Shown: in pieces, positions 1,208-15,801 of the stretch | Numbering within the stretch: position 1 is the stretch's first letter | Layout: every line of letters begins with the position of its first letter | NCBI GenBank assembly: GCA_021770845.1 | Contig: JAETQF010000010.1 | Location: 1 to 64,000 of the forward strand | Origin: Oscillospiraceae bacterium | GTDB taxonomy: Bacteria > Bacillota > Clostridia > Oscillospirales > Oscillospiraceae | Length of the DNA stretch: 64,000 nt | Direction of reading: 5' to 3' | Notes under the pieces: model-generated | Database searches by the model: none | Seen by the model: only the letters and a program-made list of their open reading frames with translations | What the model was told of the DNA's origin: nothing | Position numbers and translations under genes: made by a program

Positions 1208-1270
1208 TCTTATATTGTACAGAGCCACAGCTCCCCTAAAATGAAGCTATTACCAAAAAGGAGGAGCGTT

Positions 1271-1855
1271 ATGGGTACATACGGATACGTCCGGGTTTCC
1301 ACAAAGGAGCAGAACGAGGACCGGCAGGTCATCGCCATGCGGGAATTCGGGATTCAAAGCAACAACATTATCATGGACAAGCAGTCGGGCAAGGACTTTG
1401 ACCGCCCCGGCTACCAGAAGCTGGTACGCAAGTTGAAAGCCGGGGACACCCTTGTCATCAAGAGCATCGACCGGCTGGGGCGGAATTATGACGAGATCCT
1501 GGAACAGTGGCGGCTGCTGACCAAGGACAAACAGGTGGCCATCGTGGTGCTGGATATGCCCCTGCTGGACACCCGTCAGGGCCGGGATCTCACCGGCGTG
1601 CTGATCGCCGACATCGTCCTCCAGCTGCTGTCCTATGTGGCACAGACAGAGCGGGAGTTCAACCGCCAGCGGCAGGCGGAGGGGATCGCGGCGGCCAAGG
1701 CCAAGGGCGTCCACTTCGGGCGGAGGTTCAAAGATCGAGGCGAGAACTACGCGGATGTAATGTCCGCCTGGCGGCGGGGCGAGATCAGCGGCAGGGCGGC
1801 GGCCAGGAAGCTGGGCGTGGCCCACGGCACCTTCCAGCGGTGGTGCAAGGAGTAA
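1271..1855 (+). CDS. Serine recombinase/resolvase
   Basis: This 194-residue protein starts YGYVRVSTKEQNEDRQ, with the catalytic serine at residue 9 in the RVST motif. It continues with IKSIDRLGRNYDEIL (residues about 70-85) and ends with a short HTH of about 45 residues (ISGRAAARKLGVAHGTFQRW). The length and layout are those of Tn3-type resolvases/invertases, not of large serine integrases. It probably resolves multimers or inverts DNA of the element. ATG 1271 is chosen because aaggagg ends eight bases upstream; the ATG at 1241 has no such site. It may be controlled by the attenuator-like leader upstream. Confidence 0.9.
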   Translation: MGTYGYVRVSTKEQNEDRQVIAMREFGIQSNNIIMDKQSGKDFDRPGYQKLVRKLKAGDTLVIKSIDRLGRNYDEILEQWRLLTKDKQVAIVVLDMPLLDTRQGRDLTGVLIADIVLQLLSYVAQTEREFNRQRQAEGIAAAKAKGVHFGRRFKDRGENYADVMSAWRRGEISGRAAARKLGVAHGTFQRWCKE

Positions 1856-2163
1856 TTTGGACTGCAAAGCGTGGGTTGCAGTCCACCCAAAATGAGCTGT
1901 GTCTCTGGGTTAAAATCGCCGTTTTACACAACGGCCTATCGCCCTTTTCGCATTTTGAACGTGATAATTTTACCATATGACGCTAAAAAATGCAACAGGA
2001 AAGGTGGCTTATAACCCACACGTTGTAAGCCACAGGCCGCGGGCGCCCAAGCGGCGGACAACGCGGAATCAGAAAACAGAACGCCGCACCGCAAAAACGA
2101 AGGGCCGGCTGTCTTTGGTCGCGGACAGCCGGTCTTTTCACCTGTATAAAAATCTTCGCGCCC
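1856..2163 (+). other. Spacer without a supported gene
   Basis: Apart from the terminator at 2104-2137 I see nothing in this stretch. Weak open frames here have no ribosome site and no recognizable product. Confidence 0.5.
2104..2137 (+). terminator. Intrinsic terminator before the sigma-factor operon
   Basis: Stem 2104-2113 pairs with 2124-2133 (gccggctgtc against gacagccggt) and is followed by cttttc. It isolates the sigma operon promoter at 2164 from read-through. Confidence 0.7.
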
Positions 2164-2192
2164 ATAAAACCTCCCGGCCCGATCCTGTGTCT
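2164..2192 (+). promoter_or_regulatory. ECF-type promoter of the sigma operon (copy 1)
   Basis: The layout ATAAAACC, 14 bases, TGTGTCT is repeated with the same spacing at 4223-4251 before the downstream surface operon. It resembles bipartite ECF promoters with an AAAC-type -35 box, not sigma-A boxes. The inferred role is autoregulation by the ECF factor encoded just downstream. A CCCGATC/GATCGGG inverted repeat (2178-2184, 2205-2211) spans the -10 region. Confidence 0.6.
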
Positions 2193-2225
2193 GAATGGAT
2201 ATAAGATCGGGAAGGAGGCGGGGCC

Positions 2226-2366
2226 ATGACCCTGTTCACGTTCATCAAGCGGTGCCTGCGCGGGGAGGCGGCACGGACCGAGCCGGACTGCGCCAGGACA
2301 ATTCAAAAGATCCTGACAAAAACCCCATCAAAGGAGGAGGGAAATTCATGGAAAAAGCAGAACTGA
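2226..2366 (+). CDS. Small upstream ORF overlapping the sigma start
   Basis: A 46-residue basic peptide (MTLFTFIKRCLRGEAARTEP at its start) opens at ATG 2226, preceded by a very strong ribosome site (gaaggaggcg). It ends at 2366 and so overlaps the sigma-factor start (2348) by 19 bases in another frame. The sigma gene's own ribosome site lies inside this frame. The arrangement suggests translational coupling or a real small protein. I recognize no family. The strong ribosome site is the only positive evidence. Confidence 0.45.
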   Translation: MTLFTFIKRCLRGEAARTEPDCARTIQKILTKTPSKEEGNSWKKQN

Positions 2367-4189
2367 CCGCCCTGATCGTCAAGGCCCAGGCCGGCGACCA
2401 GGAGGCCATGGAGGAGGTGCTGCGCACCGCCCATACATCGGTGTCCTACCAGTGCCGCAAGCTGCTGCGGGACCCACGGGACGCGGAGGACATGACCCAG
2501 GAGGTGCTGCTCACGGTCTACACCAGACTGGACTCGCTGAAAACGCCGGAGGCGTTCTGGGGCTGGCTGAACCAGACCACCGCCAACCGCTGTGTCAACG
2601 CCCTGAAGCGCAACCATGTGGAGCTCCAGTTCGCCGAGGACGAGGAGGGCCACAGCGTGCTGGACAACCTGGAGGAGCTGGACGAGCAGCAGGTGCCCGA
2701 CAAGGCCCTGGACAACATCGAGACCACCCGGATGATCGAGGAGATCGTGGACGGCCTGCCGGAGGCCCAACGCCTGTGTACGCTGATGTACTACTACGAC
2801 GAGATGAGCGTCAAGGACATCGCCGCCGCCCTGGGCGTGCCGGAGAACACGGTGAAAAGCCGTCTGAACTACGCCCGGAAGGCCGTCAAGGAAAAGGTTT
2901 TGGACTACGAGAAGAAGGGCGTCAAGCTCTACGGCCTGTCCCCGCTGCCCTTTATGCTGTACTTCCTGCTCCACGCTGCCGAGGAGACCGCGGACAGCGC
3001 GGCGGCGGACATCATGGCGCAAAAGGCCATGGAACTGGGCGCGGCGGCAGCCGCCGGGGGAGAAGCCGCCGCCGCGGGCGGATCCACCGCTGCCGGAGGT
3101 ACAGCCGCTGGGAGCGCCGCTGCGAGTGGAGCCGCCGCTGCCGGAGGCGCCGCGGCCAAAGGGGTGTCGATCAAGCTGATTGCCGGGGCGCTGGCCACGG
3201 TGCTGACGGTAGGCGGGGGCGCGGCGGCGGTGGCCCTCACCCGGAACCAGGCGGAGCCGGAGCCCACCGCCGCCGTCACGGAGACCCTGCCGCCGGAGAC
3301 GGAGCGCCCCCCGGAGGAAACCGCCAGCCCGGAGCCCACCGGGACGCCGCCCGTGGAGGAGGAGCCCATCCCGGCGGAGCGGCTGGCCCTGCTGAACAGC
3401 ATTAAATATTACGGCAACCCGGCCCAGTGCCGCATGACGGTGGACCAGGCGCGGGCCTACGCCGAGGCCATCGAGACCCGAACCGCCGAGATCGTGCCTG
3501 TGAACGACTACGGCGCCGCGACCTGCCACGCGGCCCTCATCGACATCGGGGAAGGCAATCCTGTCCTTTTGCTGGCCTGCGGGACGAGTACCGACGGGTA
3601 TGGCGTCAGCGGAGACCCCGGCCCCGATTTCGTGCCCAATCCCGACTTGGACGGGTTTGTCGGCAAGCTGGAGGTCTGGCGGTACGCGGACGGGCAGGCG
3701 GAACGGGTCGCCGCCTGCCATGAGGTGTACTGGAAGGCGGGCGAGGGCTTTGTGTGCCAGACCCGCATAGGCGGGACAGAGGATGAGGACGGCAATGTCT
3801 TTCCTATGGAGGCCCAGGCCCATTACCTGGACTTCACCGCGGACGCCTACAGCGTGGAGGGCGGGACGCTCTCCCAATCCCCCATCGCCTCCGCGTCCGT
3901 TGCGGTCGATTTGATCGGGGAATACGGCGGCATCGCCCTCATTGACGGCCAGCCTGTCGGTCAGGCGGTGTGGCCTGCTTGGAGACAGCGATGGGCCGAG
4001 GGCGGCCAAACGTCCGTTGCCATCCCCCAGACCTATGGATTCTGGGAGCCGGAGGACGGCTGGACGACCATAGGCATCAGCTATGAGGCCATACTCGGCG
4101 GGTATGTGGACGACGGCATCCTGAACGTGACGACGGTCAGCCCGGGCGCGGACGCCGCCGTGATCCTGCGCCAATGCGCCGGGGAATAG
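2348..4189 (+). CDS. ECF sigma factor fused to a transmembrane segment and outer domain
   Basis: This is a 613-residue protein. Region sigma-2 spans about residues 8-90 (AEDMTQEVLLTVYTRL, then WGWLNQTTANRCVNALKR). Region sigma-4 spans about 133-190, with the HTH MSVKDIAAALGVPENTVKSR. An Ala/Gly-rich linker (230-272), one membrane helix (about 274-297), a Pro/Glu/Thr-rich spacer (300-340) and an outer domain of about 270 residues without a family I recognize follow. Normal ECF factors are about 180 residues and use a separate anti-sigma factor; here sensor and sigma are one chain. ATG 2348 follows aaggagg. By inference it senses an envelope or outside signal and activates the promoters at 2164 and 4223. 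Confidence 0.85.
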   Translation: MEKAELTALIVKAQAGDQEAMEEVLRTAHTSVSYQCRKLLRDPRDAEDMTQEVLLTVYTRLDSLKTPEAFWGWLNQTTANRCVNALKRNHVELQFAEDEEGHSVLDNLEELDEQQVPDKALDNIETTRMIEEIVDGLPEAQRLCTLMYYYDEMSVKDIAAALGVPENTVKSRLNYARKAVKEKVLDYEKKGVKLYGLSPLPFMLYFLLHAAEETADSAAADIMAQKAMELGAAAAAGGEAAAAGGSTAAGGTAAGSAAASGAAAAGGAAAKGVSIKLIAGALATVLTVGGGAAAVALTRNQAEPEPTAAVTETLPPETERPPEETASPEPTGTPPVEEEPIPAERLALLNSIKYYGNPAQCRMTVDQARAYAEAIETRTAEIVPVNDYGAATCHAALIDIGEGNPVLLLACGTSTDGYGVSGDPGPDFVPNPDLDGFVGKLEVWRYADGQAERVAACHEVYWKAGEGFVCQTRIGGTEDEDGNVFPMEAQAHYLDFTADAYSVEGGTLSQSPIASASVAVDLIGEYGGIALIDGQPVGQAVWPAWRQRWAEGGQTSVAIPQTYGFWEPEDGWTTIGISYEAILGGYVDDGILNVTTVSPGADAAVILRQCAGE

Positions 4190-4222
4190 CCCAAAAAGTT
4201 TTTTGAAAAATTTCCGGATTTT

Positions 4223-4251
4223 ATAAAACCCCACGGCGGGACGCCGTGTCT
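4223..4251 (+). promoter_or_regulatory. ECF-type promoter of the surface operon (copy 2)
   Basis: ATAAAACC, 14 bases, CGTGTCT gives the same boxes and spacing as at 2164-2192. Between the boxes lies the inverted repeat CACGGCG-gga-CGCCGTG (4232-4248), possibly an operator. No other promoter is evident down to 11892, so this site may drive the five genes from 4311. Confidence 0.6.
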
Positions 4252-4310
4252 ATATAAATCAGGAAGCCCGGAGAGGGCGGATCGTCAAGAAAAGAAAGGC
4301 GGAAGTAAAC

Positions 4311-4730
4311 ATGAAAATTGTAGGAATCGTTGTAAAAGCACTGATCGCCATCGCGGTTTTGATCAAGACGGGGATCGGCGGCGACCCGGGGGGCGCGTTC
4401 GTGCTCTTTGCGATGATCTATGGCCTGGGCACCCTGTACATCTGGCACTTCTCCACCCACAACATTTTCGTCGGGGCCGGCGGCCCGATGTCCCATGTCT
4501 GGGCCCTGATCGTCAATCTGTGCATCCCCCCGCTGATCGTTGTGGTTCCCGTGCTGCTCCTGAACATGATCCCCGGGGTGGGCACGATTCTCAGCGGCAT
4601 CATCCTCCTCGTCCTGTGCCTGGGCTGCCTGTTCTTCGATGTGCTGTACATTGTCCGGCTGTTCCAGCCGGATTTCCTGGCGGGCGTCCCGGATTTCTCC
4701 AAAAAGAAGGATGACGCCGACGGCGAGTGA
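4311..4730 (+). CDS. Small integral membrane protein, first gene of the surface operon
   Basis: This 139-residue hydrophobic protein has about four predicted membrane segments (roughly residues 4-20, 28-45, 66-86 and 90-112) and a charged cytoplasmic tail (FSKKKDDADGE). I do not recognize a family. It is the first gene after the ECF-type promoter at 4223 and is separated by 51 bases from the leucine-rich-repeat/SLH gene. Its position suggests a role in the envelope response or in handling the secreted proteins downstream. That is inference from context only. Confidence 0.65.
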   Translation: MKIVGIVVKALIAIAVLIKTGIGGDPGGAFVLFAMIYGLGTLYIWHFSTHNIFVGAGGPMSHVWALIVNLCIPPLIVVVPVLLLNMIPGVGTILSGIILLVLCLGCLFFDVLYIVRLFQPDFLAGVPDFSKKKDDADGE

Positions 4731-4781
4731 GGCGTTTCCCAAGAAAAGGCTTATAACATCAATCCAAGGAGGAAAAACATC

Positions 4782-6161
4782 ATGAAGCAAGCACTGAAAA
4801 AAGCCCTGTCCCTTGTCCTGGCCCTGACGCTGTGCATGGGTCTGGCCCTTCCCGCCTTCGCGGCGAAGCCCGACTTTGAGATCGCCGGCACCACCCTGAA
4901 AAAGTACAACGGCCCCGGCGGCAACGTGGTTATCCCCAGCGGCGTCACCACCATTGCCGACGGCGCGTTCCGGCGCAAGAATGCGGTGAGCAGCGTTACC
5001 ATCCCCAACAGCGTGACCAGAATTGAGAAAAGCGCGTTCTACCAGTGCGAGGGGCTGCTGCGCGCCACCCTGGGCGATGGCGTGACCAGCATCGGCAACA
5101 GCGCGTTCTACGACTGCACCAGCCTGGCAACCGTGGCCTTTTCCAGCGGCCTGACCTCCATCGGGGACAGCGCGTTCTCCGGCTGTTCCAGCCTGACCAG
5201 CGTGACCCTCCCCAACACCGTGACCAGCATCGGGAGCCACGCCTTTGCCAACTGCTCCAGCATGAAAAGCCTCACCCTGTCCAACAACCTGGTGAGCATG
5301 GGTCAGTGGGCGTTCACAAACTGCTCCAGCCTGACCTCTATCTTCGTCCCCGGCAGCGTCAAAACGATCCCGAAACACGCATTCTCCGGCTGCACCAGCG
5401 CGAAAAACATCACCATCTATGAGGGCATCACCACAATCGAGGCCAACGCGTTCCGCAGCTGCCCCAGCTTGACCCGCCTGACCCTGCCCTCCAGCCTCCA
5501 GGAGATCGGCACCACCGCTTTCTACGACGGAAAGGGCCTGCGGGATATCTACTACGGCGGCAGCGAGGAGCAGTGGAAGGCCGTCAGGGGTGTGAAATCC
5601 GACCTGTTCTTCAAGTCCCCCCTGGAGGACGCCGCCGTGCATTACAACAGCCCCATGCCCACCGTGCCCGCCAGCTTTAACGATGTCCGCATCAGCGAGT
5701 GGTACGCCGGGCCCGTGGCCTGGGCGTCCGGCCTGGGCATCGCCAACGGCACCGGCAACGGCAAATTCGATCCCACCCAGCCCTGCACCCAGGCACAGAT
5801 CCTCACCTTCCTGTACCGCGGCGCACGGGCGGACGAGGGCCCCTATGTGGCGGCTGACGGCTCCGATATGGCCGCCGCCGAGCAGTGGGCCAGGGAGAAG
5901 GGCATGATCGACAGCTCCTACGTGGGCAGCACCCTCTGCACCCGCGCTACCGCCGTCTACTTCATCTGGCAGGCCTTCGGTTCTCCCAACGCCTCCGGCA
6001 GCAGCTTCAAGGATATCCCCGCCGGGGCGGACTACGCCGCGTCCGTGTCCTGGGCGGTGCAGAAGGGCGTCACCGACGGCACCGGAAACGGGAACTTCTC
6101 CCCCAACAACGTCTGCAACCGGGGGCAGATCGTCACTTTCCTGTACCGGGCCTACAACTGA
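4782..6161 (+). CDS. Secreted leucine-rich-repeat (BspA-type) protein with SLH repeats
   Basis: This 459-residue protein begins with a signal peptide (cleavage near residue 27, after LALPAFA). Residues about 35-265 are BspA-type leucine-rich repeats (consensus IGDSAFSGCSSLTSVTLPNT). Residues about 300-459 hold three SLH-like repeats (FNDVRISEWYAGPVAWA, then NGTGNGKFDP) that would anchor it to wall polymers. Each SLH repeat carries a cysteine where most have none (PCTQ, LCTR, VCNR). The start follows ccaaggagg. The same SLH variant occurs in the CAP protein two genes downstream. BspA-type repeats commonly mediate binding or adhesion; the ligand is unknown. Confidence 0.85.
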   Translation: MKQALKKALSLVLALTLCMGLALPAFAAKPDFEIAGTTLKKYNGPGGNVVIPSGVTTIADGAFRRKNAVSSVTIPNSVTRIEKSAFYQCEGLLRATLGDGVTSIGNSAFYDCTSLATVAFSSGLTSIGDSAFSGCSSLTSVTLPNTVTSIGSHAFANCSSMKSLTLSNNLVSMGQWAFTNCSSLTSIFVPGSVKTIPKHAFSGCTSAKNITIYEGITTIEANAFRSCPSLTRLTLPSSLQEIGTTAFYDGKGLRDIYYGGSEEQWKAVRGVKSDLFFKSPLEDAAVHYNSPMPTVPASFNDVRISEWYAGPVAWASGLGIANGTGNGKFDPTQPCTQAQILTFLYRGARADEGPYVAADGSDMAAAEQWAREKGMIDSSYVGSTLCTRATAVYFIWQAFGSPNASGSSFKDIPAGADYAASVSWAVQKGVTDGTGNGNFSPNNVCNRGQIVTFLYRAYN

Positions 6162-6199
6162 GCGTCCGCCGCAGCTTTCAGAAAGGGATGAAACGAATC

Positions 6200-8080
6200 A
6201 TGAAAAAACGGATCACGGCAATGCTGCTGGCCCTGTGCCTGACGCTGGCCCTGCTGCCCGCTACGGCCAGCGCGGCGGGAGTGAACCCCGCGCCCTCCTA
6301 CAACAAGCACGGCCAGCAGTACACCAACAACCAGCGTTGGGCGGAAACGGTGAAGTCCCACCTGTTCGTCAACCCCTCTGGCAACCTGACCCGGGTGGAG
6401 TATTACAACGGCAAGGTGATCGTAGAGGACTACGACAGCAAGTTCCAGATCCAGTCCAACCGCTCCATCCCCATGGAGCTGCCCATCTGGGGCGGCTTCT
6501 ACGTCGGGGAGAGTTACAACTTCTTCATCTTCGGCCAGAAGAACCCGGAGCAGAGCAATGACCGGGAAGTGATCCGGGTGGTGAAGTACTCCAAGGACTG
6601 GCAGCGGCTGGGCGCGTGCAGCATCAAGGGGGCCAACACCTACGAGCCCTTCGCGTCCGGCAGCCTGCGGTGCGCGGAGTACGGCGGGCACCTCTACGTC
6701 CACACCTGCCACACCATGTATAACAACTCCCGGGACAAGTCCCACCACCAGGCCAGCATGACCTTCCACGTGGACGAAAGCACCATGCAGTGGGGCGGTT
6801 TTTACAATGTAGGCTTCTCCAACCAGGGTTATATCTATGTGTCCCACTCCTTCAACCAATTCATCCTCATTGACAACGAGGGCCACATGGTCACCCTGGA
6901 TCACGGGGACGCCTATCCCCGGGGCATCGCCCTGTTCCGCAACCACGCCAAGGCCGGGCAAGACAACCTGTTCGAGATGATATCGGACAGCCCGTTTGAC
7001 GAGAACTATGGTAAATACGGTACGTCGCGCCTGATGCAGAAAATCTCCGGCCCCGTCGGGTACAACGACACCGGCGTGGCCGTGGGCGGTTTTGTGGAGA
7101 CCTCCAGCGGCTATCTCGTGGCTTATAATTATACCGGCAATTACACCAGCAGCTCCGTGCCCCGGGAGCTCTACATGGCCTACGTCCCCAAGGAAAATAT
7201 AGAGGGTGCTTACATCAATCACTGGGGCTTTAAAAGCGGCGACTTTACCGACAAGAAGGACGTGAACATCTCCAACCCCCAGCTGGTGTCCACCGGGCTG
7301 GACGGGGGATATATGCTGTGGCAGCTGATGGAGCCTTACAGCAATTGGCACAATTCGGGCTTTGAGTCCAATCCCAGCGTGGACAAAAAGGTCTACTATG
7401 CCCGGTATCAGCCCACCGGCGGGATCGGTAAGTTCCGGGAGACGATCAAGGTCTCCGAGTGCGACGCCGAGCTGTCCGACTGCCAGCCCATCGTCTGGAA
7501 CGGCAAGGTGGTGTGGTACACCACCGGGGAGGGCGACAAGGTCGCCACCATCCCCACCTTCTATACGCTGGACGACAGCGGCGTCACGGCCCACAAGGCC
7601 GCCGCCGGGGCCGGGGCACCCGCCACCAACCTGGCCTATCCCAACACCCAGACCGTCCTGCTGGACGGCAAGCCCGTGACCTTTAAGACCTATGCCCTGA
7701 AGGATACCTTTGGAAACCCGACCAACTATATCCGCATCCGGGACATCGCCTACTACCTCAACGGCACCAAGGCCCAGTTTGAGGTGGACTGGTTTTACGG
7801 GTCGGTGAACCTGATCCCCGGCCAGCCCTACACCCCCAACGGCAGCGAGCTGTCCACGCCCTTCTCCGGCGCCCGGACGTACAAAATGGATTCGTCTACC
7901 ACGGATGTGAACAAGTTCTGGGAGCCGAAGCTGAAGCCTATCGTCCTCACCGATGACAAGGGCGGCGGTTACACCTACTACAAGCTCCGGGAGCTGGGCG
8001 AGGTGCTGGGCTTCAACGTGTCCTTTATCAATGGGCAGGTGGTCATCAACACCAACGAGCCATATTCCGACGCCCAGTAA
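6200..8080 (+). CDS. Secreted protein with C-terminal stalk (copper amine oxidase N-like) domains
   Basis: This 626-residue secreted protein has a signal peptide cleaved near residue 25 (LLPATASAAG). The middle (about 30-470) is a large domain of unknown fold, rich in Tyr, Trp and Asn, possibly a propeller. Residues about 480-626 contain one or two stalk-type domains (TVLLDGKPVTFKTYALKD, then YIRIRDIAYYLNG; VLGFNVSFINGQVVINT), the family named after the copper amine oxidase N-terminus. No catalytic signature is visible. ATG 6200 is preferred over 6188 because aaaggg then sits at a workable distance. It is the third gene of the surface operon. Confidence 0.75.
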   Translation: MKKRITAMLLALCLTLALLPATASAAGVNPAPSYNKHGQQYTNNQRWAETVKSHLFVNPSGNLTRVEYYNGKVIVEDYDSKFQIQSNRSIPMELPIWGGFYVGESYNFFIFGQKNPEQSNDREVIRVVKYSKDWQRLGACSIKGANTYEPFASGSLRCAEYGGHLYVHTCHTMYNNSRDKSHHQASMTFHVDESTMQWGGFYNVGFSNQGYIYVSHSFNQFILIDNEGHMVTLDHGDAYPRGIALFRNHAKAGQDNLFEMISDSPFDENYGKYGTSRLMQKISGPVGYNDTGVAVGGFVETSSGYLVAYNYTGNYTSSSVPRELYMAYVPKENIEGAYINHWGFKSGDFTDKKDVNISNPQLVSTGLDGGYMLWQLMEPYSNWHNSGFESNPSVDKKVYYARYQPTGGIGKFRETIKVSECDAELSDCQPIVWNGKVVWYTTGEGDKVATIPTFYTLDDSGVTAHKAAAGAGAPATNLAYPNTQTVLLDGKPVTFKTYALKDTFGNPTNYIRIRDIAYYLNGTKAQFEVDWFYGSVNLIPGQPYTPNGSELSTPFSGARTYKMDSSTTDVNKFWEPKLKPIVLTDDKGGGYTYYKLRELGEVLGFNVSFINGQVVINTNEPYSDAQ

Positions 8081-8137: not shown

Positions 8138-10537
8138 ATGAAAAAATTACTGGGACAGCGGTTTTTGGCCTGCGCACTGGCACTCTGTCTGCTGCTGGGA
8201 ATTATGCCCACCACCGCCCTGGCGGCGAGCACTGAGGAATGGAACGCCATGAACGTAAGGCTGGATGCCGCCATTGCCGAAAATTTGCACATTCCCAAGG
8301 AGGTCTACGACGTCTCACAGCACACGTTGGTGGCCAAAGACGTCAGCGGGGGACTGGAACGAGAATATAATAACTGGCCGGAACGTTATGCCGCGCTCTA
8401 TGACGACGGCACCCTGCTGATCAGCTCCGACGGCAACGGCACGGCCGTTTCTATGAGTGCACCGGTCATAGATCACGCCAGCGAGGTAAAGCTGGTCATT
8501 TTGAGCGACCGGGTGGCGGTGATCCCCGGTTTTGATAACAGATATACCTCGCTGGAGACCATCGTATCCCTGTATGACAAGCCCCTGGAGACCGAACCGG
8601 CCACTACCTACGGACCGGGTGTGAGTTTTAACAACAAAATGTATCGGCCCCCGAACCTGAAAAATATCGTGATCTACGGAAATATTCCGCGCAGCGGTTC
8701 CGTCGCAGGCATTGAAAATCCCCTCAATATCTATTACCGCGACGGATATCCGGACTGGGAGGACGAGGACAAAAACTTCTTCCGGTTCCCATCTGCATTT
8801 TTGGGTGATGGCGCGAAATACGTCACCTTCCAGAAGTTTTGCAGCTACACCTACGACGGCGGCATCGACCTGGAGCACGGCAGCACGACGGCCCACAATG
8901 AGAAGGTATTGGACTATATCTCCTCCGCGGCGGAGCTGTACGACACCGTCAGCTTTTGCAGCAAATGCGGACAGGAGGTGGGGCGCGAGCACCACTATTC
9001 CGTGGGCGGCAAGCAGTATAATGACTACACCCCCAGGGAACTGACGGTGAATATGCCCACCGTGGACGAGATCAAAGCGTTTTTCGCGGCCCATCCCATC
9101 AAAAGCCAGACGACCTACACCCGCGCCCCGGCCTATGCCCAGGAACCCTATGACCTGGGGGCCTATGACGCCGCCACCCGCAAATCCATCATGAACGAGA
9201 TCAACCGTTACCGATTCGTGGCGGGCGTCCCGGCGGAATTGGAATACAATCCCACCTATGAACCGCAGGAGATGGCGGCGGCACTGGTGATGAAGGTTGG
9301 CAACCAGTTGAGCCACTCCCCGAAGCGCACCAACGGGCTGGAGAAGCCCCAATACGACGATATGCTGACACACCGCTGGATGTGGGGCGCCAACGGCTCC
9401 AACATCGCCAGCTGGGGCAATATCATGAGTGCCATCCAGGCGTTCATGTGGGATTCCGACGCATCCAACGTTCTGGCGGGCCTGGGGCACCGTCGGCAGG
9501 TCCTCAAATCCAACCTCCAGAACGTGGCTGCGGGGGAGGCCGGGGAATACGCCTGCCTCTTTGTGGAGCACACCAAAGGCGCCTCTGGCGGCTGGTACGA
9601 CCCCGTGGCGTGGCCCGCCCGGAATACGCCCACCAGCTATTTCGGCGGCCGCTGGTCCGTGGTCTACGGCGGGGCCAAGGAAAGCCTGGCCGGCCACAAG
9701 TTCCGCGTGGAGATTCTCTCTGAAGACGGAGACTTTTATTCCACGGCGGAGAGCGGTTCCAATACCGCCGTGCTGGTCTCGGACGGCCAGGTCAACTTCG
9801 GCCATACCCTGACCACGAATCCGGATACCATCTACTCCGTGGCCGTCTTTGACGACACGGCGAAGACCTTCATGACCTATGATGTGAGCTTCTTCGAGTA
9901 TACGGACGAGGGGCATTCGGGTTCCACGCCGGAACCGACGAAGCCGGACGAGCCCGCACCCGATCCTAAGCCGGAGCCTGAGCCCGATCCCAAGCCCGGC
10001 ACCACGCCGGAACCCGGCGGGAAGCCTGCCGCGTCCAGCTTCACAGACGTATCCAGCGGGGCATGGTATGCCGAGGCGGTGGATTGGGCGGTGGGACTGG
10101 ACATCACCAACGGCACTGGGAACGGGAGGTTTTCCCCCGCCCAGACCTGCACCCAGGAGCAGATCCTGACCTTCCTCTACCGGGCCGCCCGGGGCAGCGG
10201 CAAGGCCGACCCCAAGGACATGGTCCTGGCCGTTGACTGGGCCAGGGAAAAGGGCATGATCGACAGCTCCTTCACAGGCAAAGCCCCCTGCACCCGCTCC
10301 ACCGCTGTCTACTTCATCTGGCAGGCTTTGGGCAAAGAGTCCGCCAAGGCGGGCGGCTTCACCGACGTGCCCGCCAACGCCGCCTACGCCAAGGCGGTGG
10401 ACTGGGCGGTGGCCAATGGCGTCACCAACGGCACTAACGCCGCCCAGACCCAGTTCAGTCCCAATCAAGTGTGCACTCGGGGACACATCGTCACCTTTCT
10501 GCACCGGGCCTATGTGGAGGAGGCCCGCCTGAAATAA
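8138..10537 (+). CDS. Secreted CAP-domain protein with SLH repeats
   Basis: This 799-residue protein has a signal peptide (TTALAAS near residue 28). The N-terminal 260 residues are unassigned. A CSKCG pair at about residue 275 may bind metal. A CAP/SCP domain follows at about 340-480 (IMNEINRYRFVAGVPAEL, LGHRRQVLKSNLQNVAAG, YACLFVEH). A Pro/Glu/Asp-rich linker (about 600-625) leads to three SLH repeats at the end, with the same cysteine variant (TCTQ, PCTR, VCTR) as the LRR protein at 4782. ATG 8138 has aaggag nine bases upstream. It is a surface-displayed protein; the function of bacterial CAP domains is mostly unsettled. Confidence 0.85.
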   Translation: MKKLLGQRFLACALALCLLLGIMPTTALAASTEEWNAMNVRLDAAIAENLHIPKEVYDVSQHTLVAKDVSGGLEREYNNWPERYAALYDDGTLLISSDGNGTAVSMSAPVIDHASEVKLVILSDRVAVIPGFDNRYTSLETIVSLYDKPLETEPATTYGPGVSFNNKMYRPPNLKNIVIYGNIPRSGSVAGIENPLNIYYRDGYPDWEDEDKNFFRFPSAFLGDGAKYVTFQKFCSYTYDGGIDLEHGSTTAHNEKVLDYISSAAELYDTVSFCSKCGQEVGREHHYSVGGKQYNDYTPRELTVNMPTVDEIKAFFAAHPIKSQTTYTRAPAYAQEPYDLGAYDAATRKSIMNEINRYRFVAGVPAELEYNPTYEPQEMAAALVMKVGNQLSHSPKRTNGLEKPQYDDMLTHRWMWGANGSNIASWGNIMSAIQAFMWDSDASNVLAGLGHRRQVLKSNLQNVAAGEAGEYACLFVEHTKGASGGWYDPVAWPARNTPTSYFGGRWSVVYGGAKESLAGHKFRVEILSEDGDFYSTAESGSNTAVLVSDGQVNFGHTLTTNPDTIYSVAVFDDTAKTFMTYDVSFFEYTDEGHSGSTPEPTKPDEPAPDPKPEPEPDPKPGTTPEPGGKPAASSFTDVSSGAWYAEAVDWAVGLDITNGTGNGRFSPAQTCTQEQILTFLYRAARGSGKADPKDMVLAVDWAREKGMIDSSFTGKAPCTRSTAVYFIWQALGKESAKAGGFTDVPANAAYAKAVDWAVANGVTNGTNAAQTQFSPNQVCTRGHIVTFLHRAYVEEARLK

Positions 10538-10578: not shown

Positions 10579-11892
10579 ATGAACAAACGCATTTCCGCGC
10601 TGTGCGCCGCTTTGGCGTTGACCCTCTCCCTAGCCGCCTGCGGCGGCAGTGGCGACACCCCTGCCCCCAGCCATGGCGGCGAGGGGAACGCCCCCTCCGC
10701 CGGCGTCCCGGCGGAGACTGCCAAGCCCGATGACAATCTGCCGGAAAAGGGTACCGATGCGTACTGGCTCGCCAGGGCTGCGGCCCTGGACGAGGCCAAC
10801 GCCCTCCAGAGCGGCCAGATTGGGAGCCTGTACAGCTGGTATTATGACGGCGAGGTGCTGGCAGTCCGGGGCAAGGGCACGCTGTACGATGTGGAAGTGA
10901 AGTCCACGTACGACACCCCTGATAATGTGGCCAACGTGCTCTCGAAGCTTCCCGAGGGCCCCGTCACGGTAGTTGTTGAGCCCGGCTGTATCGCCATGGG
11001 CGGCGCGTTCGGGGGGGATCTAAACACCGGTCGGGCTATCGATGTCATCATCGCGGACGGGGTTGTGGCTCTGAAGCACTCCACCTTCTATTTCTGCTCA
11101 GACCTGACAAAGCTCACCCTGCCCCAGAGCATCATCATCGTGGGGGAGAAAGTGTTTCGCTACTGCTCAAACCTGACGGAGATCACCATGCCGGACAATC
11201 TCATTTACATGGCCGGCGACGCGTTCAACGACTGCCGCAGCCTGAGCCAGATCCACTGGCGGGGTGAGACCTACGGTTCCTCCTACGACTTTCTGGAGGC
11301 CGTGAAGGCCGCCGGCATCCCCACCAAAGGCGACGCGCCCTACTTCGATCCCATGACCGGCGTCCTGAACGACGTCCATGTCCGCAGAGAAGACAACACC
11401 GTTTACGTCTCCGGCCAGGGGATGGTCCGCGGCAACGATTTGTACAATATTTTGCACAAGTATTCGATCACAACTGTGGTCATGGAGCCCGGCATCACCG
11501 GGCTCGAAGTCGGCCTCTTTTATAATTCGAAGGACCTGACTTCCATCACCCTGCCTGATGGTCTGCTCAGCATTGAGGGGTCGGCGTTTGAGGAAAACGA
11601 AAATCTGACCTCCATCACCCTGCCCGACAGCCTGGAGTTCATCGGTTCCAGCGCATTTAGTGGGAGCGGGCTGACCTCTATCGTCATCCCCGACAGCGTG
11701 ACCACGATGGAAAACCGCGTGTTCGCCAGCTGCCACGACCTGACGGAGGTGACGATCGGCAGCGGCCTGACCCAGTTTGACGCCTCCTGGTTTGATGGCT
11801 GCTGGAACTTGACCAAGGTGAAGGCCCCCAGCGGTATGCGGGAGGACGTCCTCAAATCCGGGATGGACGTGTCCATCTTCGAGTGGTATTAA
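10579..11892 (+). CDS. Leucine-rich-repeat lipoprotein
   Basis: This 437-residue protein has a lipobox (LSLAAC, cysteine at about residue 20) followed by a Gly/Pro-rich tether, so it should be lipid-anchored outside the membrane. Two blocks of BspA-type repeats (LTKLTLPQSIIIVGEKVFRY; LTSITLPDGLLSIEGSAFEE) cover about residues 110-210 and 270-420. Unlike its operon partners it has no SLH repeats. ATG 10579 follows aaaaggagt. It is the last gene of the surface operon and is followed by a G/C hairpin. Confidence 0.85.
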   Translation: MNKRISALCAALALTLSLAACGGSGDTPAPSHGGEGNAPSAGVPAETAKPDDNLPEKGTDAYWLARAAALDEANALQSGQIGSLYSWYYDGEVLAVRGKGTLYDVEVKSTYDTPDNVANVLSKLPEGPVTVVVEPGCIAMGGAFGGDLNTGRAIDVIIADGVVALKHSTFYFCSDLTKLTLPQSIIIVGEKVFRYCSNLTEITMPDNLIYMAGDAFNDCRSLSQIHWRGETYGSSYDFLEAVKAAGIPTKGDAPYFDPMTGVLNDVHVRREDNTVYVSGQGMVRGNDLYNILHKYSITTVVMEPGITGLEVGLFYNSKDLTSITLPDGLLSIEGSAFEENENLTSITLPDSLEFIGSSAFSGSGLTSIVIPDSVTTMENRVFASCHDLTEVTIGSGLTQFDASWFDGCWNLTKVKAPSGMREDVLKSGMDVSIFEWY

Positions 11893-13260: not shown

Positions 13261-14027
13261 GGGGCGCGTGGTCCGCGACAGCAGCGTTTCCCAATGAGTT
13301 CTGCTTGCCGCACGAAGTATTCAAACTCGGCCTGGGGCACGGGCCGATGCTGGTATATCTCTATCTGATCTGCCGTAAGAGCCGGAAGTGCAGCGCGGAC
13401 AAAATGGGCTGTGCCGTTATCGGTAAGACGGTTGGGCTGTGCGCAAAAACCGTGCGGACGCATCTGCGCACACTGGCTGACGCTGGGTTCATCAGGACAG
13501 AGCATCACGGACGGACCTTCTCCTACTCGCTGTGTCCCATCCAGGGAAAAGTGCGTGAACCCCATAACGCAGCGCCCCACAGCCGCTGGATATTCAAAAA
13601 GCAAGCCTGGCTCACCGGCGAGGTGTTTGACGCCGTGTTCCCTGTTCCCGTTGAGGTGTTCCAACTGGGCCTCAAAGCCAGTGAGCTGCTGGTGTACATC
13701 TACCTCCACTACCAAAAGGGTGTGCGGAGCGGACAGTGCTGGCCCAGTTACGCCACCATCGGCGCGGCGGTGGGTATGAGCCGGAAAACTGTTCAGAAAC
13801 ACATCGGGTGGCTGGTGGATAAAGGCCTAATTCAAGCGGAGGAAACCATGATCCGACGGAAGGACGGACGCCGCTGCAATGGCAACCTGCTCTATACGAT
13901 CAGGCCGATGGAGCAAGTGCTGAGGGAGCGCGAAAAGGAATCTCTCGCGCAATTGAAGCAGGCGGAGGCCCAGCACAAGTGGGAGCGGCGCTGCCAAGAG
14001 CGTGGCTGCCCCCGCTTCGCGTTGTAA
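13257..14027 (+). CDS. Replication-initiator-type protein with two winged HTH domains
   Basis: This 256-residue protein holds two related halves. Each opens with a FxLPxEVFxLGL-type stretch (residues about 9-25 and 123-140) followed by a winged HTH (CAVIGKTVGLCAKTVRTHLR; YATIGAAVGMSRKTVQKHIG). Tandem HTH proteins in this position of clostridial mobile elements are usually annotated as helix-turn-helix or replication proteins. It overlaps the excisionase gene by four bases. It could start DNA replication of the excised circle or control transfer genes; the sequence does not decide. Confidence 0.7.
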   Translation: MRGAWSATAAFPNEFCLPHEVFKLGLGHGPMLVYLYLICRKSRKCSADKMGCAVIGKTVGLCAKTVRTHLRTLADAGFIRTEHHGRTFSYSLCPIQGKVREPHNAAPHSRWIFKKQAWLTGEVFDAVFPVPVEVFQLGLKASELLVYIYLHYQKGVRSGQCWPSYATIGAAVGMSRKTVQKHIGWLVDKGLIQAEETMIRRKDGRRCNGNLLYTIRPMEQVLREREKESLAQLKQAEAQHKWERRCQERGCPRFAL

Positions 14028-14057
14028 GGCCCTTTGTGCCCCTCCTGTGCGCCGGGT

Positions 14058-14122
14058 GGCATCCGTACACCTCCCAGCCTTTGAAACGCGGTGTTGGCCC
14101 CCGTGTGGCCCACTGTGGGGGG
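14058..14122 (+). repeat. Repeat A, copy 1
   Basis: The segment resembles 16781-16852 over about 65 bases (gcatccgtacacc against gcgtccatacacc; ggtgttggccccc against ggcgttggcccct; gtggcccactgtgg against gtgggccgttgtga). These iteron-like units flank the mobilization block. Confidence 0.5.
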
Positions 14123-14146
14123 AACAGATCACGCAGGAGAAAAGCG

Positions 14147-14178
14147 GAAAGATTTACCACGCTGTAATCAGTAAGGGG
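14147..14178 (+). repeat. Dispersed repeat B, copy 3
   Basis: Nearly identical to the copy at 19971 (aagcggaaa, then ccacgctgtaatcagta). It lies 300 bases upstream of mobC. Confidence 0.6.
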
Positions 14179-14494
14179 CATCCCAAGCACGGGCCCAAGG
14201 GCAGCCCAGGCGTGATCCCCGCCGCAACCCAGTGAATGGCCGCGGCGGGGCGAAGGGCAGCGCAGAGGGCCGATTTAGGGCAAGCAGGATAAATTTACCT
14301 CACAGCTCTCCGCAGTGCGGACAGCCCCGCCGCAGTGCCGAGGGAGCGCCGAGTGAGGGCATTGCAGAGGCGGCCCGATGGAGGGATGCCCACCTTTTGG
14401 GTGGGGCAAGCATCGCGTCCGGCTATACGCCGCCCGCACTCGCCGGGGCGCTGCCCCGGCCCCCCTGCCCCCTAAAGGGGGAGAAAGGACATAA

Positions 14495-14809
14495 ATGCAG
14501 AAGAAAAAAACCGAGATTATCACCGCCCGTATGACCCCGGCAGACAAAAAAGCCATCCACCAGCGTGCCAAAGCCGTCGGCATGACCGTCACGGATTACC
14601 TCACCACCTGCGCACTGGGGAAAGCGATCATGCGCATGGACGGTCTGGACGATCTGCTCTCTGAGTTGAAAGCCCAGGGCCGCAACCTCAACCAGCTCAC
14701 CACCCTTGCCAACATGGGACGGATCACCGTCCTGCGCGGTGATGACCTCGTCCGCGAGTACACCCGGCTGCGCGATGCACTGGGTGCGTTAATCCGGGAG
14801 GTGCGCTGA
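14495..14809 (+). CDS. mobC: MobC-type relaxosome accessory protein
   Basis: This 104-residue protein has an N-terminal ribbon-helix-helix (TARMTPADKKAIHQRAKAVG) and the conserved MobC stretch LSELKAQGRNLNQLTTLANM. MobC proteins bind oriT and open DNA for the relaxase. ATG 14495 follows gggagaaagg. The stop overlaps the relaxase start by one base (TGATG), as expected for co-translated mobilization genes. Confidence 0.85.
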   Translation: MQKKKTEIITARMTPADKKAIHQRAKAVGMTVTDYLTTCALGKAIMRMDGLDDLLSELKAQGRNLNQLTTLANMGRITVLRGDDLVREYTRLRDALGALIREVR

Positions 14810-15801
14810 TGGCAACCTTCACCGCGATCCAATGCAAAAAGCAATCCGCCAGTTCCATGTGCGGCGTGATCGACTATGTGGAACAGGATAAGAAAACCCG
14901 CTGGGGCGACGCATGGTTGGTCACCGGGAGCGACTGCGTCCCCCAGTCCGCCTTCATCGAGATGCAGATGACCAAGGAGCGCTTTCACAAAACGGACGGC
15001 ACACAGTTCTACCACTTCGTCCAGTCCTTCTCCGCAGAGGACAACATCACACCCCAGGAGGTCAACGCCATCGGCCTGGAGTTCGCCCAGCGGCAGTTTC
15101 CAGGCTTCGAGGTGGTAATCGCTACCCACGTTGATACCGGCCATCTGCACAACCACATGGTGGTGAACAGCGTCAGCCACAAGGATGGACACAAGCTCCA
15201 TCAAAGCCCCAGCGACCTTCTGACGCACCGAAAAGTGAACGACGAGATCTGTCTCGCCCACGGTCTTCGGGTGCTGGACGAGTGCGAACTGCGTACCAAA
15301 AAGAGGCGCATGAAGCCCGGCGAATACCAGGCTGGCTTGCGCGGCGACAGCTGGAAGCTGGATCTGATCCAGGCCATCAACGAGGCGCTGGAGTATTCCA
15401 TCACCCGCGAGGATTTCATCACCAACATGGAGATGGAGGGTTACGAGGTGAACTGGGCCCCGAACCGGAAGCACATCACCTTCACCTGTCCCAACGGACG
15501 CAAGTGCCGGGACAGCAGCCTCCACGATGAAACCTTCCTCAAGGAAAATCTGGAGATGCTCCTCCTCTACCGTCAGACTACAGGCTTCCGCCCCACCACA
15601 CCGGAGCCGGAGGAGGGCTGGATGGGTGAATTAGCTGCCGGGTGGTTCCAGGTGGCAGCCGATCTGGAGCGCGACGAGGAATGGCAGCTCCCCGCGCCGC
15701 CCACCTGGACGGACAGCAAACAGCGCCGCAGAGAGGCTATCAAGAAAATGGCCATGGGCCAAAAGTTTAGCAACGACCAGCATTGGGAGCAAACCATGTG
15801 A
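14809..15801 (+). CDS. MobA/MOBP-type relaxase
   Basis: This 330-residue protein has the relaxase fold: a probable catalytic tyrosine in the N-terminal part (GVIDYVEQDKK, residues about 21-31) and the metal-binding histidine motif HVDTGHLHNHMVVNSV at about residues 106-121. It nicks and covalently holds the transferred strand at oriT. The C-terminal part is short; many relatives exceed 400 residues, so a C-terminal trim is possible. No coupling protein or secretion gene lies nearby, so it depends on another element for transfer. Confidence 0.88.
   Translation: MATFTAIQCKKQSASSMCGVIDYVEQDKKTRWGDAWLVTGSDCVPQSAFIEMQMTKERFHKTDGTQFYHFVQSFSAEDNITPQEVNAIGLEFAQRQFPGFEVVIATHVDTGHLHNHMVVNSVSHKDGHKLHQSPSDLLTHRKVNDEICLAHGLRVLDECELRTKKRRMKPGEYQAGLRGDSWKLDLIQAINEALEYSITREDFITNMEMEGYEVNWAPNRKHITFTCPNGRKCRDSSLHDETFLKENLEMLLLYRQTTGFRPTTPEPEEGWMGELAAGWFQVAADLERDEEWQLPAPPTWTDSKQRRREAIKKMAMGQKFSNDQHWEQTM

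Follow-up and report, generated by a model that had tools for sequence, protein, structure and literature searches.

Here we describe a membrane-tethered extracytoplasmic function (ECF) sigma factor encoded at 2348..4189 of the window, a stretch of 64,000 nucleotides (nt) of contig JAETQF010000010.1 from an Oscillospiraceae bacterium (features lie on its forward strand unless stated otherwise). The protein of 613 residues joins ECF sigma regions 2 and 4, a membrane helix and an outer domain in one chain. Its gene is overlapped at the start by a small open reading frame (ORF), has two like promoter-like elements at its locus, belongs to a family of similarly built genes and sits in a cassette that is exchanged for a different one in a sibling species. 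We consider it fairly probable that the protein is an autoregulated sigma factor that would be held at the membrane, freed by proteolysis and then drive adjacent genes for surface proteins. Its sensing, the activity of the two elements as promoters that it reads, its topology, its proteolytic release and the nature of its signal are the parts of this proposal that we infer.

Region 2 (residues 32–89, 2441..2614; Pfam PF04542) and region 4 (residues 128–179, 2729..2884; PF08281) score above their curated cut-offs (38.5 against 24 for r2 and 49.9 against 25.7 for r4_2), as does the sigma half with the NCBIfam sigma70-ECF profile (87.2, cut-off 42.9), and region 3 had no match in the family scan of the 613-residue protein. 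With regions 2 and 4 and region 3 unmatched, the protein is an ECF (group 4) sigma factor. Its core matches solved ECF factors, the nearest solved sequence being SigW (5wuq, E 1.3e-17). Region 4 is followed by a conserved segment (GVKLYGLSPLPFMLYFL..., residues 190–238, 2915..3061), defined by alignments and modelled as two helices with middling confidence, and by an Ala/Gly linker (3062..3163) for which the model predicts no regular structure. Prediction, alignment and model agree on a membrane helix with a nearly invariant Lys276 (residues 273–300, 3164..3247), from which a Pro/Glu/Thr-rich spacer (3254..3367) leads to the outer domain of 271 residues (3374..4186), which falls in no known family and has no Pfam or NCBIfam match. 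An earlier sequence-only reading had proposed a one-chain ECF sigma factor with membrane helix and outer domain at 2348–4189; the sigma matches and the helix prediction bear this out, the sigma core is intact and no enzymatic match was found in the outer domain. That reading also saw no separate anti-sigma factor beside the sigma gene, and none is recognizable in the neighbours: no anti-sigma family is among the Pfam matches of the 613-residue chain, nor was one matched in the resolvase, the small ORF or a 139-residue membrane protein nearby; an unrecognized one, or one encoded elsewhere, may exist.

Related Clostridia carry the same predicted one-chain design with exchanged outer domains. A search of 99 related genomes gave 29 loci besides our own, six of them (L009–L014) with the same layout. 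A genome-collection scan, for which six members supplied the sigma-4 and post-sigma-4 stretch, gave at least 511 relatives of the sigma-4 stretch among at least 597 pattern matches; where titles tell, these belong to Oscillospiraceae, Lachnospiraceae and other Clostridia or Bacillota. The best 80 of the at least 511 relatives were kept and, with one from viral contigs, make up the 81 loci read; these 80 were picked by similarity to the query, and fusion across all 511 does not follow from them. A membrane segment is predicted after residue 190 in 77 of the 81 loci. The four exceptions are L082, L090 and L135, which stop at a contig end, and L137, which has no segment at the threshold used. Across 71 aligned members, G191 and L194 (GxKL after sigma-4) and K276 at the helix start are at least 90% constant. 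Five further loci (L042, L044, L046, L047 and L051) encode ECF factors of the same order with long C-terminal parts (frames of about 510–880 residues), without a membrane helix at the threshold; they are apparently other extension groups.

The two halves of the chain differ sharply in conservation. Among 74 complete members, chosen by similarity, the sigma halves match one another in 2,701 of 2,701 pairs, whereas the outer parts do so in only 98 and fall into 32 clusters; no outer similarity is found in 89 of the 150 pairs whose sigma identity is at least 60%. Pfam applied to 76 outer parts finds LRR_5 in seven, RCC1 and Big_2 in two each, and WG, PdaC, IseA, A2M and FG-GAP in one each. As for the window's own outer domain, its N-terminal part is found again twice in L071 and once in L067, and also in 4 of 148 other related genomes, in one case in a secreted protein (L038). 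Such wide variation, together with the repeats, would also suit an outer domain that is no sensor, the fusion parking the sigma factor at the membrane until turnover or failure of protein export switches it on. We regard this as quite unlikely: the outer parts stay long, and some resemble wall-related families weakly, as in the IseA-like match and the PdaC-like match of L067 (E 3e-5; 25.5 bits, below the cut-off of 29.1). If the proposal of a membrane-held, releasable sigma factor is right, Clostridia would possess a one-chain signalling family (77 tethered among the 81 loci read, with at least 511 relatives of the sigma-4 stretch), and for many surface proteins that are still uncharacterised, the control and perhaps also the signals could then be tested.

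The consensus of ECF promoters has an AAC-containing −35 part and a GTC-type −10 part. An element of this kind occurs twice at the window locus: element 1 (CATAAAACC-N16-TGTCTGA, 2163..2194) precedes the pair of small ORF and sigma gene, and element 2 (TATAAAACC-N16-TGTCTAT, 4222..4253) the five adjacent genes, ATAAAACC and TGTCT being common to the upstream regions of the family. The exact pattern TAAAAC-N17-TGTCT is present exactly two times in the 2.48-Mb, 82%-complete assembly, at window positions 2165 and 4224, 2.06 kb apart. A two-block matrix was trained by iteration on 80 upstream regions. At a score of at least 16, 33 of 79 members carry this class 1 element in the 450 nt upstream of the sigma gene, compared with 29 of 1,485 random windows from the same loci. 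Its spacing hardly varies: matrix gap 16 has 53 sites, and the 12 other gaps between 10 and 22 have 0–4 each. The reversed matrix finds 6 sites over all positions, compared with 57 for the forward matrix. Outside the 300 nt that precede the sigma genes, another 37 sites reach score 19, with none in Markov shuffles of the 80 sequences; five of the 37 fall 306–427 nt before the sigma start, and one is element 2. A membrane segment is predicted for 21 of the 26 first genes downstream of other class 1 sites, compared with 250 of 573 ORFs in a baseline that contains spurious frames (p 9e-5). The 64-kb window holds no further site at a matrix score of at least 14 besides elements 1 and 2. This suggests that both are putative promoters read by the tethered sigma factor; if so, the 28-base element would mark candidate targets, and the output of such factors could be read from sequence.

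A second promoter class, AAAACC-N17-CACTAT, characterizes a sub-clade (L074, L076, L078, L079, L081, L082 and L166, the last from the sibling species G002). It comprises 13 sites at gap 17 in seven loci, or 11 once L164, the L078 genome again, is dropped; one further site, at gap 19, is unrelated. For comparison, 55 permuted patterns gave a mean of 0.07 sites and a maximum of 1. The pattern was derived from five upstream regions, of which six of the eleven sites are independent. Second-class sites precede the small ORF, the sigma gene or other genes whose products look secreted. At four other loci (L072, L080, L120 and L125), which have no own-type element, a candidate sigma-A-like TTGACA/T...TANANT match lies upstream of the sigma gene, and such matches may provide a constitutive supply in some branches.

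The small ORF (2226..2366, 46 residues) has its own AAGGAGG, overlaps the first sigma codons in another frame and ends inside the sigma gene; its product has no Pfam or NCBIfam match. Cys10 is invariant in 15 members of the window's group. With three profiles built from 26 seeds, relatives were placed directly upstream of the sigma gene at 36 of the 79 loci; these include the 26 seeds, and of the 10 others two are weak. Codon-position differences at positions 1, 2 and 3 (299/224/434, summed over 21 pairs) are as in a translated gene, in pairs picked by protein similarity. Presence of the ORF goes with the own-type promoter (25 of 36 compared with 12 of 43, p 3e-4, kinship uncorrected). The upstream relatives, the codon counts and the link to the promoter would fit a product that is the real regulator, a soluble two-helix partner that holds the sigma half and for which the membrane part is only a location or the trigger of its displacement. 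We hold that possible yet doubtful: the ORF is not in place in 43 of 79 loci, the codon counts carry the selection just given, no family matches, and the two helices are a reading by eye, not a prediction. Its occurrences away from the sigma start, 25 among the matches listed and mostly weak, are strong in L065 and L127 and point both ways. The L065 copy (E 5e-13), which did not serve as a seed, lies 1,361 nt upstream of the sigma gene with an extra gene in between, and in L073, L100 and L106 an extra gene likewise follows the ORF, which favours a regulator; the L127 copy, 4.2 kb downstream of the sigma gene and ahead of another gene, does not. The extra gene in L065, L073, L100 and L106 is lipoprotein-like or encodes a membrane protein, giving a three-gene unit of small ORF, this gene and tethered sigma gene. 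Matches at E 0.01 occur in 7 of 149 related genomes and are strong in our own, G002, G034 and G101. The small ORF raises the question of whether tethered sigma factors have a partner that gene callers overlook.

In the mechanism that we propose for the membrane-held sigma factor, the C-terminal half of the chain would stand in for a membrane anti-sigma factor. The sigma half would lie inside, helix 273–300 would cross the membrane, and the outer domain would follow past the spacer. While tethered, the sigma half would be kept off promoters by its membrane holding and probably also by the conserved post-sigma-4 segment. An outer event would lead to two cuts, one by a site-1 protease that removes the outer part and one within the membrane by an RseP-type M50 protease, and the freed, soluble sigma factor would go to TAAAAC-N17-TGTCT promoters, serving its own unit (small ORF and sigma gene) and the five adjacent genes for membrane, S-layer and leucine-rich surface proteins. 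M50 proteases are encoded in the assembly. Our preference for two-step proteolysis rests on IutY, a fused sigma factor for which this route has been tested (PMC8999054).

Several observations weigh against this mechanism. M50 proteases are encoded in 14 of 14 control genomes too, and no cleavage site is evident, none being obvious beside the helix in the family (by eye, with no systematic search). With one mismatch allowed, the class 1 pattern has 11 matches in the genome, compared with 18 for the backward control, and only the exact pair is informative. The matrix was trained on part of the regions that it then scored, which makes its count of upstream regions above the 97th shuffle percentile (28 of 80) partly circular. 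Neither promoter class lies within 450 nt in 42 of 79 members, and the loci of the nearest relatives from the same family (L166, L167 and L168) have no class 1 site at score 14. A perfect 7-bp hairpin (CACGGCG/CGCCGTG, 4232–4248) occupies the spacer of element 2 and reaches into its −10 part, and could belong to a terminator-like structure. The outer domain resembles a product of its own neighbourhood in one of 74 members, where 0.8 are expected. This sole member is L092 (8022–8507), whose outer domain is 52% identical over 151 residues to the adjacent product.

The lack of an obvious cleavage motif would also be expected of a chain that stays uncut and acts as a full-length, membrane-bound sigma factor of ToxR type, its outer domain altering the conformation of the inner half and RNA polymerase being recruited at the membrane; the long linker, predicted to be unstructured, could give the reach. 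We nevertheless think this unlikely, and count against it that we know of no sigma factor working from the membrane. According to the review PMC8999054, IutY of Pseudomonas putida (ECF243) is the only fused case with tested activation, and it is released by proteolysis, through Prc and RseP. IutY resembles the window's chain in having its sigma part fused to a membrane part and differs in that this part is a membrane anti-sigma factor. A bolder variant of the release mechanism, which we rate as a long shot, is a split inhibitor: the small-ORF protein and the post-sigma-4 helical pair would form a two-piece anti-sigma clamp, half free and half tethered, which the outer domain would break, and mobile elements would exchange the outer domain together with surface genes and promoter class. 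If that were true, mobile elements could hand on the cassette as a signalling cartridge whose anti-sigma domain comes in two pieces.

SigI and RsgI are two proteins, a sigma factor and a membrane anti-sigma factor, whereas the window encodes a single chain of ECF type. The ECF systems SigW/RsiW and SigV/RsiV of Bacillus also come from Bacillota, with a separate anti-sigma factor there and one chain here. The outer domains of L067 and L070 do no more than hint at a likeness to that of RsiV. Clostridium thermocellum is reported to have several paralogous SigI/RsgI systems, which differ in the substrates they sense and in which RseP cuts within the membrane helix (PMC12203970). A one-chain ECF sigma factor with a membrane extension is known in kind from IutY and from ECF48, ECF52 (SCO4117) and ECF53 of Actinobacteria. 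As described in PMC8999054, these actinobacterial chains unite sigma-2, sigma-4 and a membrane part, have a zinc-finger (likely ZAS) domain and one or two helices, and are proposed to be released by proteolysis; SCO4117 also has a Pro-rich stretch and an outer domain. The C-terminal membrane helix typical of these fusions is present here by prediction and model, as are a Pro-rich stretch and an outer domain. The window's chain differs in its clostridial host, its exchanged outer domains, its small upstream ORF and the absence of a ZAS motif between sigma-4 and the helix (residues 185–300 contain no Cys and one His); because those groups have a zinc-finger domain and these residues no Cys, we do not file it under ECF48/52/53. 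The same review places ECF262 (Ruminococcus albus SFB89493.1) and ECF288 (Blautia producta), clostridial groups with regulatory extensions, cysteine-rich in ECF288, in the mechanism class 'Others' (PMC8999054). The window's family may be or overlap ECF262.

The five genes behind element 2 probably form one operon. They encode a predicted small membrane protein of 139 residues (4311..4730); a secreted BspA-type LRR_5 protein with S-layer homology domains, by domain match (4782..6161); a protein with a signal-like N-terminus and no Pfam match (6188..8080), the DNA for whose C-terminal part resembles a gene for a secreted protein in L038; and, by sequence and domain reading, a protein with a signal-like N-terminus and S-layer homology domains (8138..10537) and a lipoprotein-like LRR_5 protein (10579..11892). 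The cassette is bordered by a resolvase (1241..1855) on the left and a MobA/VirD2-type relaxase (14809..15801) on the right, both also present in the sibling element of G002. The left flank (968–1886, resolvase) is 87% identical to contig C83 of G002, and pieces of the right flank (14016–15595, relaxase) are 82–91% identical. The interior matches in patches only, at 69% in the sigma part and at 74–86% in a few patches of up to about 120 bases; G002 has there its own small ORF, a leucine-rich-repeat gene (by eye), a different tethered sigma gene (L009) and other secreted-looking genes. This sibling element is locus L166, where small ORF, leucine-rich-looking gene and tethered sigma gene take up 2158–5861 and a second-class element lies at 2099. 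The relaxase recurs at 12 further places within the genus, at 73–90% identity, and because only G002 has a tethered sigma gene among the 11 loci read, the sigma cassette is, judged by this comparison, cargo of a mobile element in a minority of its copies. The sequence-only reading had called the mobile setting correctly, as it had the architecture; it missed the small ORF, the repeated promoter-like element, the surface genes and the family-wide exchange of outer domains. Cassettes exchanged on one mobile backbone, each with a different −10 class, amount to a natural experiment on the joint change of sigma factor and promoter. On the reverse strand at 317–926 lie two overlapping small genes, which by motif we take to be a nucleotidyltransferase (MNT) and its HEPN partner, presumably a common type of toxin–antitoxin pair.
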